Virus record (IMG/VR): IMGVR_UViG_3300031612_000080
Span: 1 to 22,600 of that record
Source of the DNA: a virus
Length of the DNA: 22,600 nt
Reading direction: 5' to 3' (one strand)
The translations under genes were made by a program, and so were the position numbers. A model generated the notes under the pieces. The model was not told the DNA's origin. It was given only the letters and a program-made list of their open reading frames with translations, and did no database searches. This document shows, piece by piece, positions 9,347-21,658 of the stretch (positions are counted from its first letter, which is position 1; every line of letters begins with the position of its first letter).

Positions 9347-9793
9347 TTAAATTGACTTAGTAAGAGATGACATGAACGCTGATATACCTTCTTGAGAAGT
9401 ACCTGCATTTACAAATGCTTCATTGATCTCTTCTTGAGAATACATCTTCACGCTTTCAGATTCTACAACTTCAGCACCTTCCATTTCAACCATCTCATTA
9501 ATTTTCTTAGAGTAAGCATCTTTAAGTGAATGTACTGCAGTTTCAAATTGCTCTGTCGTATACTCTTCGTTACATTCTTTAAGAACTTTAACTGCGAGAG
9601 CAGCTACTAATGCAGCATTCTCTTTCATATAAGATTCTACAGTATGATCGTCATGTACGTCTCCGTTCCATTCGGTTGCTTCTGTGACAGCGTGTTCGTA
9701 GCATTCATATAGTTTATCGGAAACGTTGAACTTCTTAGATACAGCATCTTCGTTAAGGTATGATTCGAATGTTTTGATTTTATTAAGTTTCAT
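9347..9793 (-). CDS. Small acidic helical protein with capsid-targeting-like N-terminus
   Basis: 148 aa. The N-terminus MKLNKIKTFESYLNE followed by DAV matches the capsid-targeting sequence and cleavage rule known from T4 internal head proteins, where the prohead protease cuts after Glu preceded by a hydrophobic and a small or polar residue. Cleavage here would fall after E15. The rest is acidic and helical (VKVLKECNEEYTTEQFETAV), with no enzyme motif. It starts 2 bases after the hydrolase gene. Two other proteins in the window share the same N-terminal pattern. Packaging into the head is inference; if correct, this is an internal protein ejected with the DNA. Confidence 0.8.
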   Translation of the reverse strand: MKLNKIKTFESYLNEDAVSKKFNVSDKLYECYEHAVTEATEWNGDVHDDHTVESYMKENAALVAALAVKVLKECNEEYTTEQFETAVHSLKDAYSKKINEMVEMEGAEVVESESVKMYSQEEINEAFVNAGTSQEGISAFMSSLTKSI

Positions 9794-9795
9794 AG

Positions 9796-10314
9796 TTATT
9801 GTGTTTTTTTATTTGTATGGAATGCGTTAAAGGATTGTACATTAGATTCGCGTAGATTCATAATATCTGAAACAGCATCTACTAAGACATCATATGGAAC
9901 TCGATGTCCATCATTATATTCTGTATAATAGAAACTACCAGAACCATCATGTCCAAAGTATCTCATTACATCTTGGCCGTTTACAGTCTTGTCTTGCTTA
10001 CCAAGATATACGTTATGGTTCTTACCTTTTAGTTTCGAATCATCTACGACCGGATCGAATGGTCTATCAACTACTGCCGGATTAAACAATACAGTCTTGA
10101 TACCGAGTTTACTTCCAATTAAATATGCAAAGTAACCTCCCATTGAAGATCCAACTATTAAATCAGCACCTTTGCATCCCTTTAAAGTTTCAGCAAACGC
10201 TTTATCGCTTTTGTAGTTTATTTTAGGAGCGTATACATCAAAGTTTTCTTTTAACCATTCGACTTTACGTCCAGTATTTGAGCTTTCAAGTCCGTGTAAG
10301 TATGCTATTTTCAT
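9796..10314 (-). CDS. Alpha/beta hydrolase, YqiA-like esterase family
   Basis: 172 aa, a compact serine hydrolase. Motifs: LHG at 6-8 (oxyanion region), G55-S-S57-M-G59-G (nucleophile elbow, Ser57), GKQD with Asp108, and DGHR with His137. The triad Ser57-Asp108-His137 is complete, with the spacing of YqiA/UPF0227 esterases. The substrate is unknown. A 15-residue polar tail follows the core. The gene overlaps the stop of the upstream 200-aa gene by 4 bases (ATGA), so the two are coupled. Both neighbours have capsid-targeting-like N-termini but this one does not, so it should act in the cytoplasm of the infected cell. Confidence 0.88.
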   Translation of the reverse strand: MKIAYLHGLESSNTGRKVEWLKENFDVYAPKINYKSDKAFAETLKGCKGADLIVGSSMGGYFAYLIGSKLGIKTVLFNPAVVDRPFDPVVDDSKLKGKNHNVYLGKQDKTVNGQDVMRYFGHDGSGSFYYTEYNDGHRVPYDVLVDAVSDIMNLRESNVQSFNAFHTNKKTQ

Positions 10315-10913
10315 ATCTTTGGATTACCTATTAATATTTTAGTATGTGGAGATCCTCCAAGCATTCTAGTGTACCATCCATTACCACTTAGTGATTTGTT
10401 TTCTGGATGCTCGCCGTGCCATTCGATATCTTTACCTTTGAGTAATTTTTCGACATCTTCTTGAACATCGACTGAAGGTACATTGTATTTGTCCATCATA
10501 ATATCTGCTAGTTTTCCACTAACTTCAATATAATATCCAGATTTCTTTAGAACATTAGACGTATGTACCAAATATTCTTTAGTACTATCCTTCATACCGT
10601 CATGACCAACTCCACTGAACTTCACACCGAATTTAGTGTCCGATCCCCATAGAATTACATCTAAATCTGGAGATCCATGTAAATCAACTCCTTGCCAAAA
10701 CGTCCACTTAGTATCTCCGAATACATCTTCAGGTGTTTTGATCTTTACATGTCCACCTATTGTAGAGTATGCAATGTTTATTAGATCAAAGAATTCACCA
10801 GATAGCTCTTTATGTTTTCTCGGATCCACCTTAACCCACTTACCTGGTTTGGTTTTAAGAACATCACCACTGTTTTCAGCAACAAAATCCTCATATAGTT
10901 TAATCTTCTTCAT
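10311..10913 (-). CDS. Conserved phage-type protein with capsid-targeting-like N-terminus, 200 aa
   Basis: The N-terminus MKKIKLYEDFVAE followed by NSG is very close to the T4 capsid-targeting pattern, with predicted cleavage after E13. The body looks like a folded globular domain (FFDLINIAYSTIGGHVKI, DLHGSPDLDVILWG, GYYIEVSGKLADIM, NGWYTRMLGGSPHTKILIG). It resembles an unnamed family I associate with other tailed phages, but I cannot name an activity. No nucleotide-binding loop or clear catalytic triad is visible; the His, Asp and Gly residues in the middle could form a site. It is coupled to the hydrolase gene. A packaged or injected role is inference. Confidence 0.82.
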   Translation of the reverse strand: MKKIKLYEDFVAENSGDVLKTKPGKWVKVDPRKHKELSGEFFDLINIAYSTIGGHVKIKTPEDVFGDTKWTFWQGVDLHGSPDLDVILWGSDTKFGVKFSGVGHDGMKDSTKEYLVHTSNVLKKSGYYIEVSGKLADIMMDKYNVPSVDVQEDVEKLLKGKDIEWHGEHPENKSLSGNGWYTRMLGGSPHTKILIGNPKI

Positions 10914-11625: not shown

Positions 11626-11835
11626 TTAGTCTTCTTTTAGTATATTGATTCTACTTCTTAACCTTCCTTGTAATTGAAACGATGCCCAATTATTATCTAA
11701 GTATTCCATTTCTTCTACTATTCGCTTATTTGCATATAGTCTAACTAAATCACCTAAATCTACTATGTTGCCTCCATCAATGAATGTTGTTTTTGTATTT
11801 GCTACATAGTAGCTTAACGTTTCTTCTGCTGTCAT
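11626..11835 (-). CDS. Unrecognised small protein, 69 aa
   Basis: I chose the ATG at 11833-11835 (MTAEETLSYYVANTKTTF). The frame stays open for 13 codons upstream, but those codons are the promoter cassette itself, which reads as the same peptide in front of two other genes. The protein is mixed alpha/beta and ends LRSRINILKED. First gene after a class A cassette. Function unknown. Confidence 0.74.
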   Translation of the reverse strand: MTAEETLSYYVANTKTTFIDGGNIVDLGDLVRLYANKRIVEEMEYLDNNWASFQLQGRLRSRINILKED

Positions 11836-11837
11836 CT

Positions 11838-11872
11838 TTGTTAGTTTTAATTGGTTATAAAGTAAATATAAC
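11838..11872 (-). promoter_or_regulatory. Promoter cassette, class A, copy 1
   Basis: Core TATATTTAC followed by TTTATAACCAATTAAAACTA, then six bases and the start codon. GTTATA and TATAAC flank the core as inverted arms. Together with the adjacent terminator it is identical over 83 bases to the copy at 21590-21672. It should drive the 69-aa and 59-aa genes. Confidence 0.65.
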
Positions 11873-11901
11873 AAAAAAACCCGAGACTAAAAAATCTCGG
11901 G
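11873..11901 (-). terminator. Intrinsic terminator, class A, copy 1
   Basis: Minus strand: CCCGAGA stem, 8-base loop, TCTCGGG stem, then seven T residues. GC-rich stem plus T-run is a textbook rho-independent terminator. It lies 30 bases beyond... upstream of the promoter core of the 69-aa gene and downstream of the nucleotidyltransferase gene end (11932), so it ends the long 17807-11932 operon. Confidence 0.88.
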
Positions 11902-11931: not shown

Positions 11932-13005
11932 TTAAATCAGATCATCGACTATCTTGATGTAGTCGTCTATTAAGTTTCTAGCCTTTTGAACAGCAGCATG
12001 TGCGGCTGGCGTATCAGCTTTATTAAATTTAGAAGCATTATATGTAATCATCATAGATGTTCTATATTCACTTGCGATACTATTCATGAAATCATCAGCA
12101 TTTTTGAAATTCAATAAGTCTCCAAATAATCCATTATCTTCTAATGTATCTGCAAGTCCTTTGATTGCTTCTACCATTCTTGGCATATCAAGTCCTTTTA
12201 CTTCAACACCTTTATATTTCTCAAGACCTTTTGACGGTTTCATGTCTCCTTCCTTTTTAAGATACTCAAAAAAGAATACAGCGATATCATGCAAGAAGTT
12301 ATTGAAGTCTAATGAAATAACCTTCTCTTCAACTCCAGATCTCTTAGACCATTGAGATAAAACATCTCCTTTGAATTTACCTCTTACACCTCGATCTTGT
12401 ATTGACAATCCTAAATTACCAGCAAGTGTAGAATACATCTTACCTAATACAAAACCTTTTACGTCTCTCATTGGTGTGTATCTTTGAAGAGCCCATTCCT
12501 CATAAGGAGGATGTGTAGTAACCATATCAGCTTGAATGTGTTCTAGATTACCGTCAACTTCAACTTTAAATAATATCTTAACACTACCAAGAGATGACAT
12601 GTTGTATGTTTCTCCTGCATCGACATAAGATAAGTTTGACATTTCAAGGAATCTGAATAATTCACCGTTATATGTTTTAATAGAAGCAACCTCGTCCTTC
12701 CTAGAACCTTTAGTTTCTATTTGAAGTAATGGATATGAAACTAAATAATCAATATCTCCGTAGATCTTATCTGGCTGATTAATTAAATCATCTTCATACC
12801 AAGAACCAGAACCAATTGCTTTTATAAATTTAAGAGGTGGCAGTCCAGCTGATTTAAGATGTACATTAAATTCTTTATCGAATTCTTTTATCTGTTTGTC
12901 TACTGCTTTTAAAACTTTAGGTGTTAGCTTAGTTTCTTGAGTTTTCGTAGAACTCCATCCACCTTCATTCAAAAATTCATTAAGCGATATAATCTTCCTG
13001 TTCAT
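11932..13005 (-). CDS. Nucleotidyltransferase-fold protein with capsid-targeting-like N-terminus
   Basis: 357 aa. After an N-terminal leader MNRKIISLNEFLNE (predicted cleavage after E14, before GGW) comes a nucleotidyltransferase signature: IGSGSW at 64-69, then GDIDYLV with D84 and D86 as the metal-binding pair, and a third acidic strand HIQADMV with D160. This is the hG[GS]...DxD...D layout of the polymerase-beta-like superfamily, which transfers NMP groups to proteins, RNA or small molecules. The C-terminal half is helical (FNNFLHDIAVFFFEYLKKEG). The substrate is unknown. It is the last gene before a strong terminator and follows a metallophosphoesterase by 2 bases. With the leader it could be packaged and injected, like T4 Alt; that is inference. 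Confidence 0.85.
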   Translation of the reverse strand: MNRKIISLNEFLNEGGWSSTKTQETKLTPKVLKAVDKQIKEFDKEFNVHLKSAGLPPLKFIKAIGSGSWYEDDLINQPDKIYGDIDYLVSYPLLQIETKGSRKDEVASIKTYNGELFRFLEMSNLSYVDAGETYNMSSLGSVKILFKVEVDGNLEHIQADMVTTHPPYEEWALQRYTPMRDVKGFVLGKMYSTLAGNLGLSIQDRGVRGKFKGDVLSQWSKRSGVEEKVISLDFNNFLHDIAVFFFEYLKKEGDMKPSKGLEKYKGVEVKGLDMPRMVEAIKGLADTLEDNGLFGDLLNFKNADDFMNSIASEYRTSMMITYNASKFNKADTPAAHAAVQKARNLIDDYIKIVDDLI

Positions 13006-13007
13006 CG

Positions 13008-13694
13008 TTATATAATTATTTTACAATCTATATATCTTTTTACGTCATCCATGTATTCCTTAACCTCTTCAAAACTAAATGGTCTAAATTCAGAATGGCA
13101 ATCAATACCAATTTCAAGACTCGTTCCATTAGGGAATATCCCGTCCACTTTTTTGTTTTCAGATAGTAACTTGATATCGTCATGTCTTCCTTCATCTAAT
13201 AGCATCTTAAGTGTAGCAGGTTGTATGGAATTCTGTAAGTTTCCATGCGTGTGACCATATAGCATCCAATTTCCATACATAGAACCATTCCATGATTTCA
13301 TAGGATAATGCGATAAAATGATCTTAGTTTCTATTTCGTCGATCCAAAGTTCTCGATATTGAGACACTGATGTGAAGTGTGAATGTACTTCAAGACCCTT
13401 AGTGAATTCTCTATCATGATTTCCAAGAATTAAATGAATCTCTTTACAATTGATTCTATCTCTGAAATCTCCAACAGTTTTTGCAGAACCAAACGACCAA
13501 TCACCTAAGTGGTATAGGACATCATCCTCTCCAACAACACTATTTATATTATTAACTATAGTGTCATTCATTTCTTGTAAAGAAACAAAGTCCCTGCAAC
13601 CTGACGTTCTTGGCCATGTTGTTAGGGACTTTATAATATTTCTATGGTTATAGTGAGTGTCACTGGTGAACCATATTTTTCTATCTTTTTGCAT
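13008..13694 (-). CDS. Metallophosphoesterase (calcineurin-like), 228 aa
   Basis: Complete set of motifs of the two-metal phosphoesterase fold: SDTHYNH with D12 and H14, LGDW with D65, GNHD with N92 and H93, LSHYP with H129 and GHTHG with H148 and H150. Enzymes of this group cleave phosphomonoesters or diesters, often nucleotides; the substrate is not readable here. It sits directly upstream of the nucleotidyltransferase (2-base gap), so it may act on the same kind of nucleotide linkage, which is inference. It is distinct in sequence from the second phosphoesterase at 16717-17526. Confidence 0.9.
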   Translation of the reverse strand: MQKDRKIWFTSDTHYNHRNIIKSLTTWPRTSGCRDFVSLQEMNDTIVNNINSVVGEDDVLYHLGDWSFGSAKTVGDFRDRINCKEIHLILGNHDREFTKGLEVHSHFTSVSQYRELWIDEIETKIILSHYPMKSWNGSMYGNWMLYGHTHGNLQNSIQPATLKMLLDEGRHDDIKLLSENKKVDGIFPNGTSLEIGIDCHSEFRPFSFEEVKEYMDDVKRYIDCKIII

Positions 13695-20238: not shown

Positions 20239-20442
20239 TTAGTTAGATTGTCTTTTTATTTCTGATGTATTAACATCACTTTCATGTTCTCTAAGGAACT
20301 CTATCAATTCGAGTATAGTTTCCTTGGAATCACCACGTTCTATCATATGAGTAACTACTCGTAATATACCGTAACTTCTGAAACAGCTCTCGTGTATATT
20401 ATCTATAGTCGTTGGTCTTGATAGTATTTCTTTTATTTTCAT
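20239..20442 (-). CDS. Unrecognised small protein, 67 aa
   Basis: Start chosen at ATG 20440-20442 (MKIKEILSRPTTIDNIHESC), by analogy with the other cassettes, which keep six bases between AAACTA and the start codon. An ATG two codons earlier is also possible. Mostly helical, with a charged ILELIEFLREHESD segment. First gene after the second class A cassette. Unknown function. Confidence 0.7.
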   Translation of the reverse strand: MKIKEILSRPTTIDNIHESCFRSYGILRVVTHMIERGDSKETILELIEFLREHESDVNTSEIKRQSN

Positions 20443-20444
20443 AG

Positions 20445-20479
20445 TCATTAGTTTTAATTGGTTATAGAGTAAATATAAC
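20445..20479 (-). promoter_or_regulatory. Promoter cassette, class A, copy 2
   Basis: Core TATATTTAC followed by TCTATAACCAATTAAAACTA. One base differs from the other class A copies between the core and TATAACC (C for T). It drives the 67-aa and 63-aa genes. Confidence 0.62.
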
Positions 20480-20508
20480 AAAAAAACCCGAGACTAAAAA
20501 ATCTCGGG
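20480..20508 (-). terminator. Intrinsic terminator, class A, copy 2
   Basis: Same CCCGAGA / 8-base loop / TCTCGGG hairpin and seven T residues as the other class A copies. It lies after the end of the 93-aa gene (20523) and ends its unit. Confidence 0.87.
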
Positions 20509-21292: not shown

Positions 21293-21592
21293 TTAGTATT
21301 TTGTTGTTTCATCTGATTGTCGAAGTAACCTAGAGAAAACCTCTACGAATTTTTCATTCCGAGACATTGTATGCTCTCCCATTGTATCTAGAATAAAATG
21401 TACCTTTTCGTGGTAATATGTATCTAATATAATCGATTTGTCTAGATTATCTCCTTTGTAGTTTTCACATAAAGTAATTAAATTATCTGTAACATTAGAT
21501 TCTCCTAATACAGATTCGTTACTTAGTCTCAAACTATCATAATTTACAGTAACTGTTGTCGCAAACAGTTTAAAGCTTTTAGGTATATCCAT
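21293..21592 (-). CDS. Small HExxH metallopeptidase-like protein, 99 aa
   Basis: Start at ATG 21590-21592, downstream of a class A cassette. The sequence TYYHEKVHFILDTMGEH contains a HExxH zinc motif (H-E-K-V-H), followed about 18 residues on by NEKFVEVFSRLLRQ, which has a suitable third-ligand Glu. The layout fits small zincins of the ImmA/IrrE-like or phage 'HExxH plus NE' kind. Those often cut regulators, but here nothing shows the target. There are no cysteines for a zinc ribbon except one Cys at LCENY. The small size means it may be a minimal peptidase or an inactive relative; the family is tentative. Confidence 0.78.
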   Translation of the reverse strand: MDIPKSFKLFATTVTVNYDSLRLSNESVLGESNVTDNLITLCENYKGDNLDKSIILDTYYHEKVHFILDTMGEHTMSRNEKFVEVFSRLLRQSDETTKY

Positions 21593-21594
21593 CT

Positions 21595-21629
21595 TTGTTA
21601 GTTTTAATTGGTTATAAAGTAAATATAAC
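21595..21629 (-). promoter_or_regulatory. Promoter cassette, class A, copy 3
   Basis: Core TATATTTAC, then TTTATAACCAATTAAAACTA. Identical to copy 1 across 83 bases, including the terminator and the six bases to the start codon. Drives the 99-aa, 57-aa and 71-aa genes. Confidence 0.65.
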
Positions 21630-21658
21630 AAAAAAACCCGAGACTAAAAAATCTCGGG
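21630..21658 (-). terminator. Intrinsic terminator, class A, copy 3
   Basis: CCCGAGA stem, 8-base loop, TCTCGGG stem, seven T residues. It lies just after the galE stop (21684) and ends that transcript. Confidence 0.88.

Follow-up and report, generated by a model that had tools for sequence, protein, structure and literature searches.

Enzymes injected by phages act before phage gene expression, the usual examples being T4 Alt, which modifies host proteins with ADP-ribose as infection begins, and the N4 virion RNA polymerase. To our knowledge few other injected phage enzymes are well characterized, and the T4 internal proteins IPI-IPIII are not known to be enzymes. These internal proteins are packaged by T4, whose protease gp21 cuts after L/I-X-E; the propeptides of mature-virion proteins are 7-65 residues long and ten residues are enough to target IPIII (PMC9026906), with CTS propeptides of T4 given as 10-20 residues (PMC5694885). 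Two further precedents concern nucleotidyltransferases (NTases) themselves, such that T4-GC190 has been detected in virions of S-SM1 (PMC3037559) and the polyvalent proteins, which are predicted to be injected, include Pol-beta NTases among their domains (PMC5512222). Both virion-delivered enzymes and Pol-beta NTases are already known, and their combination has been predicted earlier for other elements.

Here we evaluated a locus in a 22.6-kb viral fragment (the window, meaning the whole stretch of DNA analyzed), in which the original prediction had placed a possibly injected Pol-beta-type NTase. The ORF, its start (ATG at 13005), its length and its motifs were as that prediction gave them when checked in the window, and so was the 2-base gap to the upstream metallophosphoesterase, whose stop ends at 13008 while the NTase start codon begins at 13005 (Table 1). 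D84 and D86 lie within YGDID and D160 within IQADM, and the spaced GS...DxD...D signature was carried by this ORF only among the window's 84 six-frame open stretches with 60 aa or more, with the DNA form of GSGS-x13-YGDID giving 0 matches in 100 shuffles of the window. We refer to this protein and its relatives as family A.

Table 1. Coordinates of the family A gene, its motifs and neighboring genes in the window.
Feature	Position	Strand	Evidence
Family A Pol-beta-superfamily nucleotidyltransferase, 357 aa	11932..13005	-	ORF, alignment, model, fold match
Leader, residues 1-14 (MNRKIISLNEFLNE), predicted capsid-targeting propeptide	12964..13005	-	pLDDT <50, [LIV]xE↓GGW
EGGW....TQ.T...P motif, residues 14-29, spanning the predicted mature N-terminus	12919..12966	-	69-sequence alignment
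GSGSW, residues 65-69, nucleotide-binding GS motif	12799..12813	-	G65, S66 invariant
GDID, residues 83-86, metal-binding D84/D86	12748..12759	-	Both invariant
QAD, residues 158-160, third catalytic Asp D160	12526..12534	-	Q158, D160 invariant
C-terminal helical region, residues 275-357, with invariant K326 and K329	11935..12183	-	Structural matches barely cover it
Calcineurin-like metallophosphoesterase, no leader	13008..13694	-	PF00149 E 1.5e-7; phrog_547; 8/60 loci
200-aa protein with NTase-type leader MKKIKLYEDFVAE	10311..10913	-	Possible co-packaged head protein
148-aa protein with NTase-type leader MKLNKIKTFESYLNE	9347..9793	-	Possible co-packaged head protein

Other parts of the window also drew our attention. 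Relatives of its two other leader proteins (200 and 148 aa) lie near the NTase in other phages, and UPF0227 stands alone at 9796-10314 beside a leader-bearing gene, with another locus (L114:9561-11171) encoding a UPF0227 alpha/beta hydrolase fused to a PAP2 phosphatase domain. Three short ORFs at 11626-11874, 20239-20481 and 21293-21631 share almost the same 5' end, which reads MLYLLYNQLKLTKM or MLYLLYNQLKLMTM and is probably a promoter or leader repeated at the DNA level and not coding sequence.

To place the protein among known folds, we modeled it with AlphaFold2 from a 20-sequence family alignment (A2, see below), which gave a mean pLDDT of 88.4 and a pTM of 0.85, with residues 1-16 falling below a pLDDT of 50; a single-sequence model with a pLDDT of 40 was discarded. 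Foldseek matched 191 PDB chains at E <= 0.001, and all 50 among the matches listed were family X polymerases, with TM-scores over the query of just 0.26-0.34 among those listed. Structural superposition with VIA-align gave Z 10.9 against DNA polymerase beta (rmsd 3.6 A, 188 residues) and Z 10.3 against ASFV Pol X (rmsd 3.0 A, 164 residues), with the structural rows spanning mostly residues 19-274 and the C-terminal helices barely tested. CCA-adding enzymes, AMPylases and MenT-like toxins were absent among the matches listed, and because these lists are saturated with Pol X, the absence of other NTase families from them excludes nothing. Profile searches of PDB sequences returned no Pol X match, one that divergence may hide.

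In a 69-sequence alignment (A5), G65, S66, Y82, G83, D84, D86, Q158, D160, K183, K326 and K329 were invariant (69/69), as were G15, G16, W17, T22, Q23 and P29 around the predicted mature N-terminus, with E14 kept in 68/69. The structure comparison that had been suggested as a check on the original prediction thus returned a Pol-beta palm, that is, an NTase fold, and the Pol-beta NTase assignment was borne out by the AlphaFold2 model, the Z of 10.9 to polymerase beta and the complete catalytic triad. As far as prediction goes, the enzyme class is established.

Standard annotation did not reveal the family, as Pfam, NCBIfam, PHROGs, PDB sequences and tblastn in phages gave nothing usable for the window protein (a phrog_2506 'exonuclease' match at E 0.022 was dismissed as chance), and direct searches retrieved nothing beyond the phage itself (L002, 100%) and a single relative with 76% identity (L004/L005). 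We then scanned viral contigs with a degenerate DNA version of GSGS-x13-YGDID (39-base gap), which yielded 45 stretches. Of these, 11 encoded members of an unrelated family of proteins, two more were chance ORFs (L080 and L101) and L096 was truncated, and leaving them out brought the set to 31. Nineteen of the 31, with near-duplicates out, plus the window protein made up A2, and an A2-based search of viral contigs returned 242 stretches, 235 of them encoding family A relatives. The best 80 of these 235 were dereplicated to 60 loci, one being kept wherever the final 200 residues of the proteins were identical, and A5 combines 59 of the 60 (the window protein standing in for L111, and L139 left out) with 10 sequences from the motif scan.

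Beyond viral contigs, family A was not met in the genome and plasmid collections that we searched. Two peptide patterns run against 84,980 prokaryotic genomes gave 13 stretches and 0 relatives (relatives lacking the patterns would escape), tblastn of four divergent members found none in 50,697 GenBank phage records, tblastn of one member found none in 72,556 plasmids, and a profile search found none in 10 hand-chosen whole phage records. No Pfam or PHROG family was common to 20 members, single-member matches reaching E 0.033 and 0.0032, and PADLOC matches were confined to single members, from five families in all (best E 0.0049), with none common to members. The predicted structure of A0A6J5TD12, from an uncultured Caudovirales phage, did match (E 7.2e-23, TM 0.83 over the query), so the family is present in UniProt, unnamed. 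A description of family A was not found in our family, sequence and literature searches, and as judged from these sequences it is met here solely in uncultured phages.

We next considered the N-terminus, which the original prediction had likened to a capsid-targeting leader. The window protein begins MNRKIISLNEFLNE↓GGW with a predicted cleavage at L12-N13-E14↓G15 (arrow, predicted cut), and [LIV]xE↓GGW was found in 59 of the 60 dereplicated loci, where P3 was L in 31, I in 25 and V in 3. The exception, L161 (L161/L164), starts M-GGW exactly at the predicted cleavage position behind an AAGGAG ribosome site and represents a natural leaderless form. In fusions E↓GGW is kept within a longer chain, the start codons of L131, L166 and L175 being uncertain. 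Because E-GG also aligns between family A and a second family (family B, below), part of this conservation may serve the mature enzyme.

Enrichment of the leader beyond the NTase itself was evaluated with a long-leader pattern, [FYLIVM]xx[FWY][LIVM]xE within residues 2-22. This pattern occurred at 3 of 25 N-termini in the window (expected 0.19 by shuffling, 0.68 from internal windows) and at 41 of 179 in 11 close-relative loci (1.6 and 2.2 expected, respectively); eight of those 41 proteins are family A, and with families A and B taken out the close relatives still showed 33/167 against 1.7 expected. Three head-gene regions of close relatives held 12/53 (0.6 and 1.1 expected), and control PhoH loci showed no enrichment (1/232). 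Among far family loci the long pattern was not enriched (6/529, with 3.3 and 6.9 expected) and three head-gene regions of far relatives held 0/49. A short-leader pattern (M, 2-8 residues, hydrophobic pair, E), written after seeing the far relatives, matched 91/447 of their N-termini versus 9.4 expected, and 26/349 versus 5.7 with the three main families out, some of the 26 being near-identical. In 31 pairs of A and B leaders from one phage, the resemblance did not significantly exceed that of shuffled pairings (p 0.11). Together, the T4-propeptide anatomy, the gp21-type site and the enrichment of the pattern over chance in close relatives uphold the capsid-targeting-like leader of the original prediction.

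If the leader is a propeptide, one would look for its protease, and the large relatives mostly carry one. Of 25 family A records, 9 have Peptidase_S77 and 10 have Gp23, and among the ten records over 120 kb a gp21-like protease was present in 7 and a gp23-like capsid in 8, leaving 3 of the 10 large relatives with no protease match. Peptidase_S77 is not specific to family A, occurring also in 5 of 18 records where family A was not found. A 216-kb relative (L200) encodes a family B protein with leader MRWREIITE↓GGN located 0.4 kb downstream of its gp23-like gene, a 99-aa ORF lying between the two. No head gene was identified in the 22.6 kb of the window, so the protease and capsid of its own phage are deduced from these relatives.

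Evaluating the gene neighborhoods further, we found that the recurring neighbors of family A are a second NTase (family B) and DUF6267, and not the metallophosphoesterase. Family B has the pattern GS...SGDxD...QxD, and hhalign identifies it as remotely homologous to family A (95.4% and 96.4%). It neighbors family A in 33/60 loci, directly upstream in 21, and was found in 19 of the 25 family A records, including 10/10 over 120 kb. By comparison, among 18 records fetched by their PhoH and giving no family A match, six larger than 120 kb, family B was found in 0; a positive control was recovered in the family A search, and the family B search had its positives in the family A records. Four of these six large records are nearly equal in length (270-271 kb), and Fisher's exact test gave p 0.0001, or 0.003 when the four are counted once, with relatedness uncorrected. 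Family B without A, and leaderless, was seen in two isolates of the 10 whole phage records, Atu_ph07 (gp65) and Flavobacterium phage immuto. One further family B match (L236, G038:C1:212-946) has one TGA and two TAG inside, and a 246-aa open frame is also given for it.

DUF6267 (PF19782) neighbors family A in 30/60 loci, directly downstream in 18. Pfam searches of the 25 family A records detected it in 8, all of them outside the close relatives, and it is thus probably missing from the lineage to which the window belongs. Its invariant residues are K53-W-D55, E357-G358 and K369, which we take to resemble ligase motifs I, IV and V; going by these residues we credit DUF6267 with a putative ligase-like motif and make no further assignment. 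As a candidate ligase it was rejected (hhalign to the RNA_ligase-like Atu_ph07 gp66 0.7%, PDB profile search unconvincing), and the literature that we searched held no mention of it. In L139 (8227-10920) DUF6267 is fused to a cytidyltransferase, and tblastn (E 6e-5) placed a homologue of DUF6267 in cyanophage Syn33 beside the T4-GC190 cytidyltransferase, whose N-terminus there reads MKKFSAFLTEA. By analogy, the virion-detected T4-GC190 comes closest to experimental evidence that a nucleotidyltransferase with such a leader is packaged.

Family A also occurs fused to other domains, namely a C-terminal GH19 endolysin-type domain (L071:3257-4957 and L142:5986-7773), ParB_N (L070) and GNAT-like segments that fall below the Pfam cut-off (L082, L169), and this assortment is consistent with delivered proteins. 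The isolate Atu_ph07 offers a separate observation, in that its gp53-gp62 (L223, L225) all begin M[RK]W..L.E, nine of the ten with L[TN]E, and all ten hold a YRG[MI] motif that we presume to be ART-like, such that the region looks, on these motifs, like an injected enzyme array. After gp63 and gp64 come the family B gp65 and the RNA_ligase-like gp66. In this phage gp65 belongs to a cluster of CDS 31-76, from which 29 proteins were detected (PMC6102473); we do not claim gp65 as experimental proof of packaging, as it is leaderless and detection is known at the level of the cluster. In immuto, the leaderless family B gene is followed by immuto35A_182 (L224:9088-11811), a 907-aa protein annotated as an NMN adenylyltransferase with an N-terminal GS...GDLDI NTase-like segment of its own.

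The original prediction had further suggested that the upstream metallophosphoesterase could reverse or trim the modification made by the NTase. The gene is directly upstream in the window and in the 76% relative, and it neighbors family A, on either side, in only 8 of the 60 dereplicated loci. Its family matches 1434 GenBank phage records by tblastn, and it has no leader. With these three observations the proposed role was not borne out, and we rejected the metallophosphoesterase as a specific partner because it is general; it is probably an independent enzyme.

Bringing these lines together, we consider it fairly probable that family A is a leader-targeted, cleaved, packaged and injected Pol-beta NTase that acts early in infection, most likely on a nucleic-acid 3' end. 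Packaging and delivery are likely given the anatomy of the protein and its relatives, and from the same evidence we infer cleavage, ejection and activity. The gene product would be a two-part precursor in which the propeptide (residues 1-14) docks the protein into the prohead core, and a protease of the T4-gp21 type would cut after E14 to release a mature enzyme starting GGW. That enzyme would be packed with the genome and enter the cell with the DNA, where D84, D86 and D160 with two metal ions would transfer a nucleotide before new phage proteins exist. Its likeliest target would be a nucleic-acid 3' end, either the ends or nicks of incoming phage DNA or an RNA such as a tRNA damaged by host defense, and it may work with the second Pol-beta-type NTase of the same phages.

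We hold the target less firmly than the delivery. For the class of substrate, nucleic acid is our best guess, if one held at slightly less than even confidence, with protein a lesser possibility and a small molecule an improbable one. With polymerases the nearest of the listed folds and a second NTase present, we lean toward nucleic-acid ends, and this remains a lean, resting on the resemblance of the predicted fold and on the neighbors. More speculatively, families A and B, joined in many lineages by DUF6267, could form a mostly leader-packaged, virion-delivered kit for nucleotidyl transfer, an idea that we put forward tentatively. DUF6267, which has a ligase-like KWDG motif and stands by itself or in fusion with a cytidyltransferase, would be part of such a kit, whose substrates within minutes of infection would be the ends of the incoming genome or host RNA that has been damaged. 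If real, the kit would be common among uncultured phages and would have escaped notice because the isolates searched lack family A.

Other readings share much of this evidence. The enzyme could be packaged and injected but modify a host protein by NMPylation, bringing early takeover or silencing of a host function, and we treat this as possible, if doubtful. The Pol-beta NTases of polyvalent proteins have been proposed to transfer NMP to proteins (PMC5512222), some family A proteins carry fused GNAT-like segments that score under the Pfam cut-off, and Atu_ph07, which has family B, carries its ten leader-bearing YRG[MI] proteins two genes away. However, the matches listed comprised family X polymerases and no protein AMPylases, in lists that are polymerase-saturated, and no conserved protein partner appeared among the family A neighbors. 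A small-molecule or signaling-nucleotide substrate (NAD metabolism or a defense messenger), handled with the nearby NMNAT-like cytidyltransferase and phosphoesterase genes, would draw on the DUF6267-cytidyltransferase fusion in L139, on the family B gene immuto35A_181 preceding the annotated NMN adenylyltransferase and on the 8/60 loci with a metallophosphoesterase neighbor. We judge this substrate quite unlikely, as no PADLOC family recurs among members and the large helical C-terminus would suggest a macromolecular substrate.

The remaining readings dispense with injection or with catalysis. The protein might be made in the infected cell for replication or repair, its leader serving assembly or some other localization and nothing being injected, and for this one can cite the 1/60 leaderless variant, the adjacent phosphoesterase and PhoH with no leader, and the carry-over of highly expressed proteins into virion preparations, which is described as a caveat for virion enzymes (PMC10665884). 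Such a cellular role is unlikely, given that unlike proteins share the leader, that it is enriched in the head-gene regions of close relatives and that the cleavage site is kept in 59/60. An inactive or structural internal head protein reusing the NTase fold has a precedent in the packaged T4 proteins IPI-IPIII (PMC9026906), but it is very improbable here, because conservation of GS, D84, D86 and D160 in 69/69 sequences down to 25% identity would hardly be expected without catalysis. A packaged and injected NTase that acts early stays our preferred reading, and the core of the original prediction thereby rests on firmer ground than one sequence could have given it. If true, a head-targeted Pol-beta NTase would add new chemistry to the injected phage enzymes. 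The leader with its conserved cleavage site also provides a route for listing candidate injected proteins of large phages from sequence.

Compared with described systems, the closest predicted viral structure is A0A6J5TD12 ('ParB/Sulfiredoxin'), a 1096-aa multidomain protein that evidently contains a family A domain, which its annotation omits. DNA polymerase beta and ASFV Pol X share with family A the palm fold and the GS...DxD...D triad (Z 10.2-10.9 in the rows listed), whereas identity to family X polymerases is 11-15% with no sequence match at the profile level, and family A, unlike them, adds a leader and a C-terminal helical region that the matches barely cover. T4-GC190 is likewise a nucleotidyltransferase with the same leader style, but it is cytidylyltransferase/NMNAT-like, with what we take to be a HIGH-type fold, and not Pol-beta; in Syn33 it has a DUF6267 homologue beside it, as family A has DUF6267 in other phages. 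Its detection in S-SM1 virions (PMC3037559) gives it the experimental footing closest to our proposal. The NTox45-like NTases of polyvalent proteins resemble family A in being Pol-beta enzymes with predicted delivery alongside mobile DNA, and differ in being minimal domains described primarily from Firmicutes mobile elements, family A being larger and leader-bearing (PMC5512222). RlaP (RNA-ligase-associated) is also a Pol-beta NTase and is reported in jumbo phages (PMC7824862); membership of family A in it was rejected, with PF10127 matching 0/20 members and hhalign giving 0.1% to an RlaP protein from a family A-bearing phage. The nearest parallel in delivery is T4, where Alt and the internal proteins, like family A, have a short N-terminal leader ending L-x-E that is common to several different proteins, and where a gp21-type protease and gp23-type capsid correspond to those in most large family A relatives. 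Their chemistry sets them apart, as T4 Alt is an ADP-ribosyltransferase, while the window protein has the predicted fold of a Pol-beta NTase rather than an ART fold and its family is known here from genes alone.
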